DNA of 64,000 nt from NCBI RefSeq assembly GCF_024204645.1, contig NZ_CP100351.1, positions 1 to 64,000 of the forward strand, written 5' to 3'. Made by a program: the position numbers and the translations under genes. The notes beneath the pieces were generated by a model. That model searched no databases. It had not been told where the DNA came from and was given only the letters and a program-made list of their open reading frames with translations. The stretch is from Desulfomicrobium sp. ZS1. GTDB lineage: Bacteria; Desulfobacterota; Desulfovibrionia; Desulfovibrionales; Desulfomicrobiaceae. Of the stretch, positions 41,441 to 48,965 are shown one piece after another. How positions within the stretch are numbered: position 1 is the first letter of the stretch; each line of letters opens with the position of its first letter.

Positions 41441-43654
41441 TTAGGTGGTGACTTTTTTCTTTTTCTTAGTCTTTTTTTGCGCCATTTGCCAAGCGACCAA
41501 AAGGAAGAAAACGCAAACTCCCAGAATCTGCATTCCCAGCCGGTCGAAGGGCAGGTACGGCGCAAAGGCGCCCGGACGGAAGGTCGTGGCGCAAATGGCC
41601 AGCAGGGCAAGACGCTCGACCCAGCTGCAGCTTTTGACCAGCCAGCCCTGGATCGCCGAGGCGAATGCGAACATGGCGATCGTTCCGGAAAAGAAGATCC
41701 AGGCGATGTGCAGGTAGTCGTCCAGCCAGATGATGTCTCCCGTGCTTGTCACGCCCGAAATCATCAAGAGATCGGTGTTGAAGAGGAAGATGAAGGGCAG
41801 GATCGCGGTGCGCAGGTCATAGGCGAAACCCTGCACACCGGTTTTAATTGGGTCGGAGCGCGCGATGGCCGCCCCCGCGTAGGCGGCGAGCCCCACCGGA
41901 GGCGTGTCGTCGGCGAGAATGCCGAAATAGAAGACGAACAGGTGGGCCGCGACGAGGGGAAAGACAAGCCCTGCGTCAGCCCCGAGCTGCACGATGACCG
42001 GCGCGGTCAGGGTGGCCATGATGATGTAATTGGCCGTGGTCGGCATGCCCATGCCCAGGATCAGGCTGGTTATGGCCGTGAAGATGAGCATCAGGACCAC
42101 GTTGCCCATGGAGATGGTGTCGATGAGGGTGATGAAACGGCCGACAAGGCCGGTGATGGTCACCACGCCGACGATGATTCCGGCCGTGGCCGTGGCCACG
42201 CCCACGGAGATCATGTTGCGCGCGCCCATGATCAGGCCGTTCCAGATGTCAACGAGACCCTGCCAGGCAGCGGCGGCGATGAACCGTTTGGTATCCACCT
42301 GCGGGTCGAGGGTGCCGGCGCGGCGATGGGCGCCCATGGTCAGAAACGCGATGATCGGACGCTGCACCAGCATGATTACGGTCAGGCTCTCGATGGCCAG
42401 GAGCGCGGAGGTCACCGGCGAGCGGCGCACGATCACCAGGAAAAAGATCAGTACCGCCAGCGGGATGATGAAGTGACAGCCCCGCAGCAAGGTCTTGAAG
42501 AAGGGCGGAAGCTGGCTGCGCGGGATGGCCTTGATGCCCAGTTTCATGGATTCGACGTGCACGACCCAAAACAGGGCCAGATAGGAAATGATCGCGGGCA
42601 GAAAGGCTGCGCGGACGACATCAAGATAGGGGATGCCGATGATCTCGGCCATGATGAAGGCCGCCGCGCCCATGACCGGAGGCATGAGCTGTCCGTTGGT
42701 GGAGGCCGCGACTTCCACGGCTGCGGCCTTGTAGGCCGGAAAGCCCACTTTTTTCATCAGCGGAATGGTGAAGGTGCCGGTGGTCACCGTGTTGGCGATG
42801 GACGAGCCAGAAACCAGACCGGTCAGGCCCGAGGCCAGGACCGCGGCTTTGGCCGGACCGCCGCGAAAGGTGCCCAGCGCCGAGAAGGCCACGTCGATGA
42901 AGTATTTTCCTCCGCCCGCACGGTCGAGCAGGGCGCCGAAGAGGACGAAAAGAAAAACGAAATCCGTCGACACGCCGAGCGGCACGCCGAATATGCCGGT
43001 GGTGGTCAGGTACATGTCGCTGATGATGAAATCGAGCGGCACGCCGCGATGACGCAGCACTTCGGGCAGATAGGGGCCGAAAATTGTGTAGGCCATGAAG
43101 ATGCCGCCCAGGATGGTCAGGGCGGGCCCGAGGGAGCGTCTGGCGGCTTCAAGCAGCAGCACGATCAGGATGATGCCCATCCAGATGTCCATGGTGTTGG
43201 GCAGACCCTGGCGGTAGATGAGCTGGTCGTAGTCCCACCAGATATACAGCGCTCCGGCCGTGGCCAGTGCTGCAAGGATCATGTCATAGTAGGGAATGTA
43301 GGTGCGTATGGAACGCCTGGCGAAATTGGGGATGACTTTTCTGGTCCATTTGACCCACATGGGCGGGGTCTGTTGCTTGTAGGCAGGATAGGCCAGGAAG
43401 GCCAGGCACACCGCAAAGCCCAGATGCCAGGCCCGGGCGATATGCGAGTCCAGGGGCTGGTAGGCCAGGTAGAGCTGGAAGCCGGACCAGCACAGGCACA
43501 AAAGCGTGATCACGCCGGAGGCGAAAAAATTCGAGGGTTCCCGCGCCCCTGCTTCGACCATGGCCACAAGGTCTTCGGCGGCCTGTTTCATGCTGGCGGA
43601 AGACTCGTGGCCGGGGGCGACGTTGTCTTGTTTGGGTGTTTCGTGTTCTGCCAT
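41441..43654 (-). CDS. TRAP transporter fused permease (DctQM-like, TAXI type)
   Basis: 737 residues with many membrane helices. The N-terminal part carries the small DctQ-like module and the rest the 12-helix DctM-like module; fusion is normal for TAXI systems. Visible DctM-type motifs include GALLDRAGGGKYFIDVA, GGPAKAAVLASGLTGLVSGSS and LGMGMPTTANYIIMA. Uses an ion gradient to import a solute bound by the adjacent TAXI protein. A Lys-rich C-terminal tail is notable. Hairpin 43711-43738 lies between the binding-protein gene and this gene. Confidence 0.92.
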   Translation of the reverse strand: MAEHETPKQDNVAPGHESSASMKQAAEDLVAMVEAGAREPSNFFASGVITLLCLCWSGFQLYLAYQPLDSHIARAWHLGFAVCLAFLAYPAYKQQTPPMWVKWTRKVIPNFARRSIRTYIPYYDMILAALATAGALYIWWDYDQLIYRQGLPNTMDIWMGIILIVLLLEAARRSLGPALTILGGIFMAYTIFGPYLPEVLRHRGVPLDFIISDMYLTTTGIFGVPLGVSTDFVFLFVLFGALLDRAGGGKYFIDVAFSALGTFRGGPAKAAVLASGLTGLVSGSSIANTVTTGTFTIPLMKKVGFPAYKAAAVEVAASTNGQLMPPVMGAAAFIMAEIIGIPYLDVVRAAFLPAIISYLALFWVVHVESMKLGIKAIPRSQLPPFFKTLLRGCHFIIPLAVLIFFLVIVRRSPVTSALLAIESLTVIMLVQRPIIAFLTMGAHRRAGTLDPQVDTKRFIAAAAWQGLVDIWNGLIMGARNMISVGVATATAGIIVGVVTITGLVGRFITLIDTISMGNVVLMLIFTAITSLILGMGMPTTANYIIMATLTAPVIVQLGADAGLVFPLVAAHLFVFYFGILADDTPPVGLAAYAGAAIARSDPIKTGVQGFAYDLRTAILPFIFLFNTDLLMISGVTSTGDIIWLDDYLHIAWIFFSGTIAMFAFASAIQGWLVKSCSWVERLALLAICATTFRPGAFAPYLPFDRLGMQILGVCVFFLLVAWQMAQKKTKKKKKVTT

Positions 43655-43747: not shown

Positions 43748-44707
43748 CTACATCCAGCCTTTTTCCTTGTAGTACTTGATCGCGCCGGGATGCAACGGGG
43801 CGGAGAGGCCCTGCAGCATTTCCTTGGGGTTCAAGTTGCGGAAAGCGGCGTGAGAGGCTTTGAGTTCGTCCAGATTTTCAAACACGGTCTTGACCATGTC
43901 GTAGACGACTTCTTCGGACACGGATTCACTGGAGATGACGGTGGCGGTCACGGCGTAAGTCTCGACGCCTTTGTCCACGCCTTTGTAGGTGCCGGCCGGA
44001 ATCGTGGTCATGATGTAGTAGGGGTGCTTGGCCACGAAGTCTTTGATGCCGTCGGAGTTGATGGGGACGATGTCGAGGTCGACGGATTGGGCCGGTTCTT
44101 CGACAGCGGCGCTGGGGTTGCCGACGGTGAAGAAGAAGGCATCGACCTTCTGGTCGACCAGGGCGCGGGAGGCTTCAGCCTGCTGCAGGGCCTCGGCGCT
44201 GAAATCCTTGTTGAAGTCGAGTCCGTAGATGCGCAGGACGTCCTCGGCATTGCCGCGCTGGCCGGAGCCGGGGTTGCCGATGTTGATGCGCTTGCCCTTC
44301 ATGTCCATGACGGTCTTGATGCCGGCGTCCTTGCGGGTGACCAGCAGAACGGTCTCGGGGTGCATGCTGAAGACGCTGCGCAGACCGGCGATGGGCTTTC
44401 CTTCCCAGTCGGCGGCGCCGTTGAAGCCCTGCCAGTTGCGGTCGGACTGGGCCACGGCGAAGTCGAACGCGCCGCGGTCAATGGCGTTGATGTTGAATAC
44501 GGAGCCGCCAGTGGGCCGGCCGATGTAATTGTACTTGTCGGTCGTATGCTTGTTCATCATGTTGCTGAGCTGCAGCGCGACCTGGTAGTAGACGCCGGTG
44601 ATCGATGCTCCGCCGAACAGGATGTCCTGCTTGGCCATCGCCTGGGGAGCGGACACCGCCATGCCGAGAACGACAACAAGGCCGGCCAGCCATTTTCTTC
44701 CAACCAT
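43748..44707 (-). CDS. TAXI-family TRAP solute-binding protein
   Basis: 319 residues. A signal peptide (about 1-25, ending APQAMA-KQ) is followed by the periplasmic binding fold with ILFGGASITGVYYQVALQLS and GKRINIGNPGSGQRGNAEDVL typical of the TAXI family. Substrates known for the family include glutamate and other acidic solutes; this one is unknown. ATG 44707 has GGAGG seven bases upstream; the longer frame to 44752 would precede the Shine-Dalgarno sequence. First gene of the transporter operon. Confidence 0.9.
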   Translation of the reverse strand: MVGRKWLAGLVVVLGMAVSAPQAMAKQDILFGGASITGVYYQVALQLSNMMNKHTTDKYNYIGRPTGGSVFNINAIDRGAFDFAVAQSDRNWQGFNGAADWEGKPIAGLRSVFSMHPETVLLVTRKDAGIKTVMDMKGKRINIGNPGSGQRGNAEDVLRIYGLDFNKDFSAEALQQAEASRALVDQKVDAFFFTVGNPSAAVEEPAQSVDLDIVPINSDGIKDFVAKHPYYIMTTIPAGTYKGVDKGVETYAVTATVISSESVSEEVVYDMVKTVFENLDELKASHAAFRNLNPKEMLQGLSAPLHPGAIKYYKEKGWM

Positions 44708-44760
44708 ACGCACACCTCCATCAATGAGTTGTTGTGACATGAAAAAATCCACTACATTAT

Positions 44761-44815: not shown

Positions 44816-45985
44816 TCAGCCGCTTTGCGCGTGATTCCAGATCGCTGTGATGGTTGCGGCGGTGAGCGCCGCCCGGGAGGTAAGGGAGTTTTTGAGAATA
44901 AACTCCAGATCGCTGTGGTCCAGGTCTCCCACCGGACCCAGTCCGTCCAGAACAGGCACGCCCAGGCCGGCGATGAAGTTGGCGTCGGACACGCCGGAGC
45001 GCAGTTCGTCGGGCAGTTCGTAGCCGAGGATGCGCGCCTGCTCGCGGGCGATGGCCCAGAGCCGCCGGTTCCCTTCGGATTGGGGCATGGCCGGTCGTCC
45101 GGATTGCACTGTCAGGGTGGTTGATGTCCCGGCGATGCTTTCGTGCTCGGCAATCCGGGCCAGGCTTTGCTCAAGCCGCTGCTGGCCGTCCGGGGTCAGG
45201 AAACGGGCATCGAGGGTCGCCGTGGCCAGTTCGGGCACGGTGTTCGGGCCGATGCCCCCCGTGATTTGCCCGACATTGAGCGTGATCTCCCGGCCGTCGT
45301 TCAAGCCTTCCAGGGCGATGATCTTGTGCGCCAGCTCCAGGATGGCGCTGGCCTTGGCCCCGCCTTTGGCCGCATGTCCAGCCCGGCCGCGCACGGTCAG
45401 GTGCATGCCGAGCCGCCCTTTGCGGCCGGTGACCACGTCGTTGTTTGCACCGCCGCCCTCGAAAACCAGGGCGGCCAGGGCTCCCTTCGCCTGTTCTTCG
45501 ATCCAGGGCCGGGAAGCGGGCGAGCCGATCTCCTCGTCGGAATTGCACAGCACGGTGACGGGAATGTTCTCCAGCAGGCCCAGATGGGCCAGGGCCTTCA
45601 AGGCGTAGATCGCGACCACGAGGCCGCCTTTCATGTCATAGACTCCCGGACCATGGCAACGCTCGTCGTTTTCCCGGAACGCGGTGAAATCCGTGTCGGC
45701 GGGAAAGACCGTGTCCATGTGGCCGACCAGCACGATGCCCTTCTCTCCCCTGGCGGCCGGGCTCGTCATGACCTGGACCATGTTTCCGTGCTCCGCGAAG
45801 GGCAGGATGCGCACCTCGGGCAGGATGCCGCCAAGAACTTCGGCCACGTCCACGGCCATGCGGTCGAGGCCTGGCTTGTTGCGGCTCCCGCTCTGGATTT
45901 CCACCAGCCGTCGCAAGAGATCCAAGGCCTCCCTGCGACGGGGTTCAAGATAGGACAGGATCACGTCGTGCATGGCCGGGATCAT
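44816..45985 (-). CDS. M20-family metallopeptidase/amidohydrolase
   Basis: 389 residues. Metal motifs are in order: VGHMDTVFPADTDF, GPGVYDMKGGL, SDEEIGSP (catalytic Glu), and EGGGANN; the lid dimerisation domain lies in the middle. Close to ArgE/DapE/carboxypeptidase G2-type enzymes that cleave an N-acyl or C-terminal amino-acid bond. ATG 45985 overlaps the KamA-like stop (ATGA), so it is co-translated; the frame continues upstream only as an out-of-frame shadow of that gene. Inference: it acts on a product or precursor of the upstream ligase and aminomutase. Confidence 0.9.
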   Translation of the reverse strand: MIPAMHDVILSYLEPRRREALDLLRRLVEIQSGSRNKPGLDRMAVDVAEVLGGILPEVRILPFAEHGNMVQVMTSPAARGEKGIVLVGHMDTVFPADTDFTAFRENDERCHGPGVYDMKGGLVVAIYALKALAHLGLLENIPVTVLCNSDEEIGSPASRPWIEEQAKGALAALVFEGGGANNDVVTGRKGRLGMHLTVRGRAGHAAKGGAKASAILELAHKIIALEGLNDGREITLNVGQITGGIGPNTVPELATATLDARFLTPDGQQRLEQSLARIAEHESIAGTSTTLTVQSGRPAMPQSEGNRRLWAIAREQARILGYELPDELRSGVSDANFIAGLGVPVLDGLGPVGDLDHSDLEFILKNSLTSRAALTAATITAIWNHAQSG

Positions 45986-47544
45986 TTTTCGTACTTGGCG
46001 AAGCCGAAGTCCTGCCGGGCGTATTCTTGCGGCTCGGGATCGGGATAGGTGACCTGCTCGCCGCTCCAGGGCTTTTGCATCTTCACGTGGCCCTGGCAGT
46101 GTTCGAGCACATTGGTGCGGTGCAAGGGGATCTTGCCGCCGGCCGTGGCGATGTAGCGCGGGATGGCGTCGCCGGAGATGTTGCCGTACATGCTCTCCAC
46201 AATGCTCTGGCCCACGGCCACGGGCACGCGCAGATGCTTGAACTGCGGGTTGCGGTAGCTGCAGTTGAAGACATAGTAGGGCCTCACGTAGGCTTCCTGG
46301 ATGGTCTCGCACAGCTTCCACATTTTCACGCTTGAGTCGTTGATTCCTTTCAAAAGCACGGCCTGGTTCATGACCGCGGCCACGCGTTTGGAGATGGCCT
46401 GGAAAGCGGCCTTGGACACGGGGGTGATCTCTTGGGCGGTGTTGATCTGGGTGACCACGCGCAGGGGCTTTTTGTCGTTGCTGGCTTCCAGGATGTCCAG
46501 GAGTTCGTTGTCGATGCGCTGCGGCGTGGTCACGGGGATGCGCGTGCCGAGCCGCTTCATGCGCACGTGTTCGATGGCGTCAAGCTGCCCCAGCAGCCAT
46601 TCGAGCATGGAGTTGGGCAGGACCAGGCTGTCGCCGCCGGTGACCAGCACGTCGCGGATTTCGGGGTTGGCGCGGATGTAGTCCAGGGCCTCGCCGTAGG
46701 CGTCCTTGCCGTAGAGGCGGTCCTTGGCGCCGATGTGGGCGATGCGCAGGCAGTGGGTGCAGTACATGGCGCACATGTTGGTGGCCTTGATGGTCACCAC
46801 GCGCGGGTAAAACTGGTCGATGAGCCGGGCCGGGGAATGGTCTGCGGCCACGGGCGGGATCTCGACTCCGGCGTTGTCGACCATCTCGCCGGTGGGCACG
46901 GATTGGAGCAGGACGGGGTCGTTGATCTGCCCCGGCAGGATCAGGCTCGCGTAGTAGGGGGTGAGGCGCATGCGGTAGGTCTTGGTGACCCGCAGCACAT
47001 CCTCTATGGCCTTGGCGGGCAGATCGATGACCTTGGACAGGGTCGCGACGTCCTCGATGGCGTGGCGCAACTGGCCGGAGTAGGAGTTCCAGTCGTCATC
47101 GCTCATGCTTAGCACGTTTTTGATGCGTTTTTGGTTTTCGAGCATCCGGTCCCAGACTTCGATGCCGCTGGGGGCCTCCTTGGGATGGCGGTCCAGGTAT
47201 TCGCGGACCCTGCTCTGGGCCGCGTCGACGATGGGCAGAGCCCTGCCCACGCGTCCGCCCACGGTGACGCGGTGCTCGTCTATCCCTTCGTGTTTTACAG
47301 CCAGGGCTGTAAGGGCGTCTCGCGTTATGCCCAGCTGCTCCGGAGTAAATCCTTGGTCGTTATGGAATTTTTCCAGCGCAGAGAAAAGAGCAACGATGGG
47401 CGCGGTCAGCTTTTCGGCTTCGGCATGTCTGAAGAGCTCGGCAATGGCTTTTCGCTCTGCATCCGATGGCGCGCCGTCTTTTTTCGCGGTGAACAATTTT
47501 TCAAAGAGATCTGTTGTAAATGCGTCCAAGGCATTGATGTTCAT
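45982..47544 (-). CDS. KamA-like radical SAM aminomutase with altered substrate residues
   Basis: 520 residues. Lysine 2,3-aminomutases use SAM, a 4Fe-4S cluster and PLP to move an alpha-amino group to the beta carbon. Cluster cysteines are 258, 262 and 265 in NMCAMYCTHCLR; the PLP lysine is Lys471 in ATAGGKIPLHR. The N-terminal about 170 residues are an added helical region compared with classical enzymes of about 416 residues. The two Asp residues that hold the lysine side chain in the known enzyme (in QCD and VDAPGGGGK) correspond here to NCS and ATAGGK, so lysine is unlikely to be the substrate. Tightly packed between an ATP-grasp gene and an M20 gene. Confidence 0.88.
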   Translation of the reverse strand: MNINALDAFTTDLFEKLFTAKKDGAPSDAERKAIAELFRHAEAEKLTAPIVALFSALEKFHNDQGFTPEQLGITRDALTALAVKHEGIDEHRVTVGGRVGRALPIVDAAQSRVREYLDRHPKEAPSGIEVWDRMLENQKRIKNVLSMSDDDWNSYSGQLRHAIEDVATLSKVIDLPAKAIEDVLRVTKTYRMRLTPYYASLILPGQINDPVLLQSVPTGEMVDNAGVEIPPVAADHSPARLIDQFYPRVVTIKATNMCAMYCTHCLRIAHIGAKDRLYGKDAYGEALDYIRANPEIRDVLVTGGDSLVLPNSMLEWLLGQLDAIEHVRMKRLGTRIPVTTPQRIDNELLDILEASNDKKPLRVVTQINTAQEITPVSKAAFQAISKRVAAVMNQAVLLKGINDSSVKMWKLCETIQEAYVRPYYVFNCSYRNPQFKHLRVPVAVGQSIVESMYGNISGDAIPRYIATAGGKIPLHRTNVLEHCQGHVKMQKPWSGEQVTYPDPEPQEYARQDFGFAKYEK

Positions 47545-47546
47545 TT

Positions 47547-48965
47547 CTATTCATCCTCTTCAGATTCTTGAGTTTGTGAGTGTTTGCGGATGGAGTCGTT
47601 CAGCTGCTCGATGCCCAGGCGTATGTCGTCTTCGAGCATGCAGCGGTCACGGGCCACGGCCACGACCCTGCCCAGAAAGGTGCCGGGCATGACGGCCTGT
47701 TTGCCGCCTACGTGTTCGACCACGATCACCCCGTGTTCCTGGCCGTTGCAGACGACCTGGCGGAAGAGGGTCCGCTCGTCTTCGTCCACGGGGACGATGT
47801 GGTCGGTCTCGGCTTCATGTTCGAGCTTGAAGTTGTAGGTCCTCCAGCAGATCCCGTTCAGGGCCTCTTTCATTTCCATCATGTTGTCCGGAAAACGGTC
47901 GAACATCACGGCGTGGTATTCCAGCTCAAGCAGGCCTGGGGTTTCCGGCGGTAGGGCGTTCTCAAGCGTGCAGCACATCTCCATGGTCGTGCCTTGCTTG
48001 CGGGCGTTGACCTCCACGAAAAAAATCCGCCCCTCGGCATCGACGATGTAGTCGCAGCCGAAGATGCCGCGATAGCCGCTGCGGCCCATGACCTGCCCGA
48101 TCCTGCGCGTGATCTCGCGCAGCTCCTGTTGAATGGCGTAGGGCTGCTCGGACGGGAATGTGGATCCGCGAAACTTGTTGCCGTCGTATATTTCCTGGTC
48201 GGCGGTGGCCGCGATGAACACATCCTGGGCGTTGGCCACGATCCCTAGAACCGTGGGGTCGGCCACATGCGGGATGTAGCGGCTGATGAAGAACTTGCCC
48301 CGCAGATGCGCGGTCTTGGTCTCGATCTCTTCCTGCGAATGGGCAATAAAGCTGTTCACCCCGGCCGCGGAATAGGGCTGGCTGACAAACATGCCGTCCG
48401 TCCATTCGTCCCAGAGTTCCCGGGTTATGCTCAGCATGTCCTGCGCGTCCTGACTGACGCGGTAGTTGATGACCGGCGCGACGTCTTTCAAGCGCTGCAG
48501 CTGGTAGAGCTTGTTGTTCCAGATATTGGCGATGTGTCCGCTGGGCCCCAGCACGCGTACGCCGGGGATGAGCGCCAGGGTCAGTTCCGGTACGGATTCG
48601 AAGACATGGATGAAGACGTGCCCCTGCTTGTCCAGGAGTTGGCGGATGAGTTCATTGACCGTGTCCGATGCGGAGACCAGGGACGCAAAGGTTCGCGGTG
48701 GGATGCGGAAGCTGATTTTGCGGCCTTTTTCCCGGAAAAGCTCCCGGGCCATGGGGTTTATGACCATGGTGTTTTTGTGCGGATAGGATTCGAGCACATC
48801 CGGCAGGATGGAAATGAAATCAAAAGGCCGGCCGTGAATCTTGGAGAGTGTTTCCTTGAAGAATTGATTCAGGCAATCCGTCTTTATTTCTCCGATATAC
48901 AGGAAGTAAAACGTGTCCGGGTCAAGTTTGAGGTCTGAAAAAAGAATATCTTCGTCTTCGAGCAT
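47547..48965 (-). CDS. ATP-grasp ligase-like protein
   Basis: 472 residues. N-terminal about 150 residues of unknown fold, then an ATP-grasp region: VRVLGPSGHIANIWNNKLYQ, GVNSFIAHSQEEI, GKFFISRYIP and the Mg-binding GIFGCDYIVDAEGRIFFVEVNARKQGTT with Glu and Asn. A C-terminal about 90-residue domain follows. ATP-grasp enzymes join a carboxylate to an amine or thiol. ATG 48965 has GGAGG seven bases upstream; an earlier TTG at 48983 would include the site. Its stop is two bases before the KamA-like start. First gene of the operon. Confidence 0.85.
   Translation of the reverse strand: MLEDEDILFSDLKLDPDTFYFLYIGEIKTDCLNQFFKETLSKIHGRPFDFISILPDVLESYPHKNTMVINPMARELFREKGRKISFRIPPRTFASLVSASDTVNELIRQLLDKQGHVFIHVFESVPELTLALIPGVRVLGPSGHIANIWNNKLYQLQRLKDVAPVINYRVSQDAQDMLSITRELWDEWTDGMFVSQPYSAAGVNSFIAHSQEEIETKTAHLRGKFFISRYIPHVADPTVLGIVANAQDVFIAATADQEIYDGNKFRGSTFPSEQPYAIQQELREITRRIGQVMGRSGYRGIFGCDYIVDAEGRIFFVEVNARKQGTTMEMCCTLENALPPETPGLLELEYHAVMFDRFPDNMMEMKEALNGICWRTYNFKLEHEAETDHIVPVDEDERTLFRQVVCNGQEHGVIVVEHVGGKQAVMPGTFLGRVVAVARDRCMLEDDIRLGIEQLNDSIRKHSQTQESEEDE

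Follow-up and report, generated by a model that had tools for sequence, protein, structure and literature searches.

A conserved ligase, aminomutase and peptidase operon of Desulfomicrobium sp. ZS1 that may make and hydrolyse a beta-amino-acid amide

A stretch of 64,000 nucleotides from Desulfomicrobium sp. ZS1 (contig NZ_CP100351.1, positions 1 to 64,000; 'the window') carries, as a coupled tandem on its minus strand, the genes of an ATP-grasp ligase, a KamA-family radical S-adenosylmethionine (SAM) aminomutase and an M20 metallopeptidase. These genes are a genuine conserved unit that goes beyond chance, because their order is kept in many genomes and the changes in the aminomutase pocket are invariant or nearly so in its subfamily. 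The aminomutase represents a distinct subfamily and is not a lysine enzyme. We put forward, tentatively and at slightly less than an even chance, that the operon is a pathway for a beta-amino-acid amide, in which glutamate would be turned into beta-glutamate, ligated into an amide and eventually hydrolysed by the M20 enzyme, the amide being a solute or nitrogen reserve; the substrate, the amide partner, the direction and the role of this pathway are those that we infer. An earlier note, written from the sequence alone, had proposed a beta-amino acid or a small amide made from it. This was a good reading as regards a conserved unit with a non-lysine aminomutase, a ligase and an amide hydrolase, and its substrate can now be refined towards glutamate. 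In the open full-text literature, a body that leaves out most subscription journals, no paper was recognised as describing the triad.

The tandem can be read directly from the sequence. The ligase stop codon ends at 47547 and the aminomutase begins with ATG at 47544, leaving 2 bp between them, and the TGA of the aminomutase overlaps the ATG of the M20 gene (start at 45985) by 4 bp, as ATGA. These are the values by which the earlier note had coupled the three genes. The longest M20 open reading frame (ORF), from 46321, extends into the aminomutase gene; relatives align with the 389-aa form, which starts at 45985.

Conservation was followed in the best 80 of 99 aminomutase relatives found in contigs taken at one genome per species, all 80 being examined with profiles built from aligned relatives. 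They belong mostly to Desulfo- lineages, with some Campylobacterota, Spirochaetales and others. A co-occurrence search of the three families, as the earlier note had suggested, found them linked: in 60 of the 70 loci whose upstream flank measures 1500 nt or more, the ligase lies directly upstream on the same strand, at a gap of <800 nt, and in 48 of the 67 with a downstream flank of 1300 nt or more, the M20 gene comes next on that side. Both flanks are present in 58 loci, which divide into 35 with the triad, 14 with the ligase only, 7 with the M20 gene only and 2 with neither. Two broader samples give the reach of single genes. Aminomutase matches at E 1e-60 or better occur in 69 of 199 genomes of the order sample, a figure that includes AblA-type paralogues close to this threshold and is no count of triads; among 395 genomes of the phylum sample, the aminomutase is found at E 1e-120 in 4 and the ligase at E 1e-60 in 8.

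The aminomutase scores 236.1 bits against the KamA family model TIGR00238, above the cut-off of 199.2. Its AlphaFold2 (AF2) model (pLDDT 83.7) matches lysine 2,3-aminomutase (LAM; 2a5h) with Z 37.5 and a root-mean-square deviation (rmsd) of 2.1 over 328 residues, in a comparison that covered mainly residues 233–499 of the model. Cys258, Cys262, Cys265 and Lys471 align with C125, C129, C132 and K337 of LAM, the CxxxCxxC cluster and the pyridoxal phosphate (PLP) lysine. All four are invariant in 110 of 110 alignment rows (30 from the order sample and the 80 best relatives, some genomes entering twice with no deduplication), as is Arg267, the equivalent of LAM R134, which we take to contact the substrate carboxylate. 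The presumed lysine-binding residues of LAM, D293 and D330, are both replaced, the first by Ser429 (Ser in all 110 rows) and the second by Thr467 (Thr in 105 rows, Ala in 5). At the other end of the protein the N-terminal extension is real: LAM residue 9 falls opposite residue 144, and the glutamate 2,3-aminomutase model TIGR04368 has its position 14 opposite residue 110. Near the end of the extension lies a conserved motif, E90-H91-x-V93 with GGR at 96–98. The earlier note was thus correct on the kept cluster cysteines and PLP lysine, on the absence of both Asp residues and on the large extension.

It is very improbable indeed that this is an ordinary lysine 2,3-aminomutase locus. The overall LAM fold and the radical SAM and PLP residues would suit one, but both lysine-binding Asp are replaced and the score against the lysine model TIGR03820 is 286.3 bits, below the cut-off of 525.4. 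The genome has a separate KamA protein (L119:6363-7763, at about 2698 kb) that is AblA, with 770.6 bits against TIGR03820. As both Asp are changed and this AblA exists, the window aminomutase is not the lysine enzyme of the cell. An AblB-like gene seems, by eye and with no score, to follow AblA in loci L120–L122. A divergent member of the subfamily (L126, G464:C614; 606 bits) has altered pocket residues, and its short contig carries no ligase or M20 label.

Of the curated glutamate and lysine aminomutase models, TIGR04368 gives the window aminomutase its best score. A search with this model of 297 genomes of the phylum gave one protein above the cut-off (L127, 716 bits), and five other matches were listed, two just below the cut-off (L128, 632 bits; L129, 608 bits) and three at 504–520 bits. 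The L128 and L129 aminomutases adjoin the same ligase family as that of the window (loci L141 and L142). In L142 ligase, aminomutase and M20 are separate genes in that order, and in L141 a ligase–aminomutase fusion of 922 aa is followed by M20. These operons are of a second form, in which the aminomutase has Lys at LAM position 293, a residue that we take to have a substrate role in glutamate 2,3-aminomutase. A ligase-profile search of 55 genomes of one class found eight positive, five with a Lys293 operon (one already known) and three of the window type, one of the three loci ending before the pocket. Altogether, Lys293 operons were found in six other genomes (L141, L142 and L161–L164), always in the order ligase, aminomutase, M20, with a second fusion, of 918 aa, in L162; the four of their aminomutases that were scored reach 605–632 bits against the TIGR04368 cut-off of 650. 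The ligase-positive genomes total 15, six of the window type, six of the Lys293 type and three, all from one genus, in which no aminomutase adjoins the ligase. For these last three the ORF lists (L148, L149 and L150) carry no KamA label, those of L149 and L150 covering 16–18 kb around the ligase and that of L148 omitting the ligase ORF itself.

The two operon forms have closely matching partners. Of the 72 near-invariant columns of the ligase, those of L141 and L142, the two of the six that were tested, agree with 68, and two of the solitary relatives (L149:7532-8959 and L150:7970-9397) with 46. For M20 the invariant columns number 63; the enzymes of two Lys293 operons keep 60 and 59 of them, the control M20 domains, in fusion proteins of L107, 28 and 25, and carboxypeptidase G2 (CPG2) 34. 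Within the aminomutases, the window subfamily has the same residues as the six Lys293 enzymes at LAM positions 230, 290, 291, 292 and 330 (Q, F, N, C and T, the T in 105 of the 110 rows), all but that at 292 differing from LAM, and in a tree the subfamily and the glutamate-type enzymes form one clade (98/99) apart from LAM. With the ligase and the M20 enzyme common to both forms, the simplest reading is that both aminomutases make the same compound, and to judge from the conserved columns the ligase and the peptidase of the two forms probably recognise one and the same compound. Because this ligase and this M20 enzyme accompany a glutamate-type aminomutase with Lys293 in six other genomes, glutamate or a close derivative has moderate support as the substrate of the window enzyme. 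The fusion of ligase and aminomutase in two Lys293 operons suggests that the two act in succession.

Several points weigh against glutamate as substrate and against an amide pathway. The aminomutase scores 342.1 bits against TIGR04368, well under its cut-off, and is 35.6–37.0% identical to glutamate-type enzymes, no higher than to LAM (37.5%). The Lys293 of L127 and of the six Lys293 operon enzymes is replaced in the window subfamily by Ser, unlike every other aminomutase compared, together with an invariant Arg nearby (Arg431); that Arg431 might have taken over carboxylate binding from Lys293 is a guess based on the alignment. In the tree the subfamily sits on a very long branch (5.56), and the bootstrap is unsettled, so that the grouping with glutamate-type enzymes is perhaps in part an artefact. 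The invariant Ser293 and the long branch would also suit a different substrate (e.g. aspartate, alanine or glutamine), with the Lys293 operons as a sister pathway to a similar but different product, but nearly all of the conserved ligase and M20 residues are common to both operon types, and we regard this alternative as improbable. In gene content, the M20 gene does not adjoin the aminomutase in 19 of the 67 loci. Nor was the ligase found elsewhere in any of nine genomes with a ligase-free locus (L084 and L109 included), their completeness being unstated, although the same query did match in other genome samples; it therefore appears to be dispensable in some genomes. Osmolyte operons need no hydrolase, though that for N-acetylglutaminylglutamine amide (NAGGN) has one, according to the available part of PMC8070244. 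Rfam at gathering scores gave only tRNAs and RNase P RNA, and no riboswitch, in the window and nine chosen loci of 118; sodium riboswitches are tied to ablA and eam genes elsewhere (PMC9337991, in the part available). Promoter and terminator scans were near chance (1 against a shuffled expectation of 1.3, and 7 against 6.0) and were not used.

The ligase matches Pfam ATP-grasp_3 with 24.7 bits (cut-off 23.2) and RimK with 23.4 (cut-off 21). Its AF2 model (pLDDT 90.7) has a PurK/PurT/PylC-like fold, the best match being PurK (3k5h; Z 26.9, 354 residues, rmsd 3.9), but such matches are generic, as PurK, PurT, PylC and biotin carboxylase all lie near Z 24–27, and they carry no substrate information. 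The pairing of a radical SAM enzyme with an ATP-grasp ligase in pyrrolysine synthesis, to which the earlier note had appealed, finds no support beyond this shared PylC-like fold. By sequence, the best match among solved structures is BesA (8yi6), named L-propargylglycine--L-glutamate ligase, at residues 232–333 with E 2.4e-9; only this part of the ligase aligns, and the score against the BesA model NF042917 is 35.6 bits, far below the cut-off of 750.

The M20 protein scores 97.1 bits against Pfam M20 (PF01546; cut-off 24.6) and matches CPG2 (1cg2) at E 2.6e-30. Residues H89, D117, E151, E152, E176 and H357 are invariant in 21 aligned members and identical in CPG2, where we take them to be the metal-binding and catalytic residues; as these are kept, the enzyme should be active. 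Against the M20 profile the operon protein reaches 568 bits, and two other M20-type matches in the same genome only 60 and 39. The earlier note had the M20 enzyme trimming a protected intermediate; a role in turnover is no less likely.

In the pathway that we propose, the aminomutase would shift the amino group from C2 to C3 of L-glutamate, or of a very close acidic derivative, to give beta-glutamate. The ligase would join this, with ATP, to a second partner, perhaps an amino acid such as glutamate, to form an amide, and the M20 enzyme would return the amide to its parts when the pool has to shrink. Most likely the amide would serve as a compatible solute or a nitrogen reserve beyond the reach of protein synthesis, and the adjoining TAXI-TRAP transporter may recapture the amide. 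The reversed order of events is rather unlikely. Here the ligase would act first to make a neutral gamma-glutamyl amide or dipeptide, the aminomutase would rearrange it by means of its Ser/Thr pocket and N-terminal domain, and the M20 enzyme would free the beta-amino acid. Such an order would be in keeping with the lack of charge at position 293, with the invariant EHxV...GGR motif of the extension, which glutamate-type enzymes are without, with the distant likeness of the ligase to BesA and with further amide hydrolase homologues in some loci. However, the same ligase and M20 enzyme serve the Lys293 enzymes, which should bind a free carboxylate, and Arg431 is invariant.

Variant loci bear on the direction of the pathway. 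Ten of the 70 loci with an upstream flank have no ligase there; in one of the ten (L071) it lies downstream, on the opposite strand. A gamma-glutamyltransferase homologue (369 bits against Pfam, above the cut-off, and 3 bits under that of TIGR00066) is found in seven loci. None of the seven has the ligase, nor did it turn up elsewhere in their genomes, whose completeness is unstated, and five have dipeptide-type ATP-binding cassette (ABC) transporter genes. This ligase-free form suggests a scavenging use elsewhere. If the window operon too were for scavenging, beta-amino acid amides would be imported and cleaved by the M20 enzyme or the gamma-glutamyltransferase homologue, the aminomutase would run backwards to an alpha-amino acid, and the ligase would trap or activate the substrate. 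The seven loci, a GntR-FCD regulator in 18 of the 80 loci and the TAXI-TRAP genes beside the window operon speak for such a use, but it is unlikely, since an ATP-spending ligase sits directly upstream in the 60 of 70 loci mentioned above and two Lys293 operons have it as a fusion with the aminomutase.

Downstream of the aminomutase, a small conserved gene takes the place of M20 in five of seven Campylobacterota loci (L112–L115 and L118). It was considered as a gamma-glutamylcyclotransferase and rejected, the AIG2_2 matches being only E 0.001 and 0.19, under the cut-off, with no convincing solved relative. The idea that all neighbours act on gamma-glutamyl bonds was dropped, the cyclotransferase and gamma-glutamyltransferase assignments being weak. 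Adjoining a ligase-free aminomutase locus, L107:9748-14142 holds two adjacent genes whose long products each include an M20 domain; the product that was scanned joins a D-Ala-D-Ala-ligase-like ATP-grasp domain to M20.

Among known systems, glutamate 2,3-aminomutase is like the window enzyme in its KamA fold, in the residues at LAM 230 and 290 and in its clade; the window enzyme differs in its low TIGR04368 score, Ser rather than Lys at LAM 293, the extra N-terminal part and an operon with ligase and M20. The AblA-AblB pathway to the osmolyte N-epsilon-acetyl-beta-lysine, of which the host has AblA, follows the same beta-amino acid logic of an aminomutase and then an amide-forming enzyme, but the window aminomutase is without the lysine-binding Asp residues, an ATP-grasp ligase replaces the acetyltransferase and M20 is added. 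In the available part of PMC8070244, the NAGGN dipeptide osmolyte operon (asnO-ngg-peptidase) also combines amide-forming enzymes and a peptidase; unlike the window operon, it has no aminomutase and uses glutamine, and its peptidase is annotated as a glutamyl aminopeptidase. Methanogens are known to use beta-glutamate and beta-glutamine as solutes; in them, however, nuclear magnetic resonance evidence is against an aminomutase route and a glutamine synthetase makes the amide (PMC1224877, in the part available). PboF-PboG of Pseudomonas, likened here by description, places a LAM-like gene beside an L-amino acid ligase-like ATP-grasp gene but differs in its other gene content, with no M20 in the gene table of the available part of PMC8473136.

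A wider claim is doubtful but conceivable: a beta-glutamate amide or dipeptide would be an unrecognised, widespread metabolite. Its makers would be sulfate reducers and Campylobacterota from saline and sediment habitats, and other organisms would eat it by means of the ligase-free operon; the window aminomutase would be a new glutamate-acting subclass in which the Lys is replaced. Beta-aminoglutarate occurs in the water of anoxic marine sediments, and a make-and-eat cycle of this kind, if true, could help to explain it. If the proposed pathway is right, bacteria have a further way of making a solute from a beta-amino acid, with an amide formed at the cost of ATP as its last step in place of an acetyl group, and anoxic sediments can be searched for a specific set of genes. 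The pair of Lys293 and Ser293 operons also makes substrate selection testable, as the shared ligase and peptidase report whether different aminomutases give the same product.

Table 1. Coordinates of the operon, of parts of the aminomutase and of the downstream genes in the window
Feature	Position	Strand	Basis or remark
ATP-grasp carboxylate-amine ligase, 472 aa	47547..48965	-	Pfam ATP-grasp_3, RimK; AF2 model
KamA-family radical SAM/PLP aminomutase, 520 aa, altered side-chain pocket	45982..47544	-	TIGR00238; AF2 model
Aminomutase N-terminal extension, ~residues 1-109	47218..47544	-	Beyond glutamate 2,3-aminomutase model
Aminomutase pocket motif FNCSYRNPQ, residues 426-434	46243..46269	-	Ser429 = LAM D293; Arg431 invariant
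M20 metallopeptidase/amidohydrolase, 389 aa, carboxypeptidase G2-like	44816..45985	-	Pfam M20; CPG2 match
TAXI-type solute-binding protein of TRAP transporter, next gene downstream	43748..44752	-	TIGR02122, 314.5 bits
TRAP fused permease, downstream	41441..43654	-	TIGR02123, 672.1 bits

The TAXI solute-binding protein and the TRAP fused permease (Table 1) are possible but unproven partners of the operon; 20 of the 33 relative loci that extend 7 kb to both sides include a TAXI or TRAP gene. KamA-like genes that are divergent from the operon and lie outside the subfamily, one of them in a 599-aa form, occur in L058, L098 and L101 (opposite strand, upstream of the ligase) and at L085:3025-4824. 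At L053:4176-6629, beside a ligase–aminomutase pair, there is a glutamine synthetase-like gene (364 bits to GlnA, below the cut-off), and a second KamA protein, in which LAM positions 293 and 330 are Glu and Thr; a beta-glutamine arrangement is possible in this locus.

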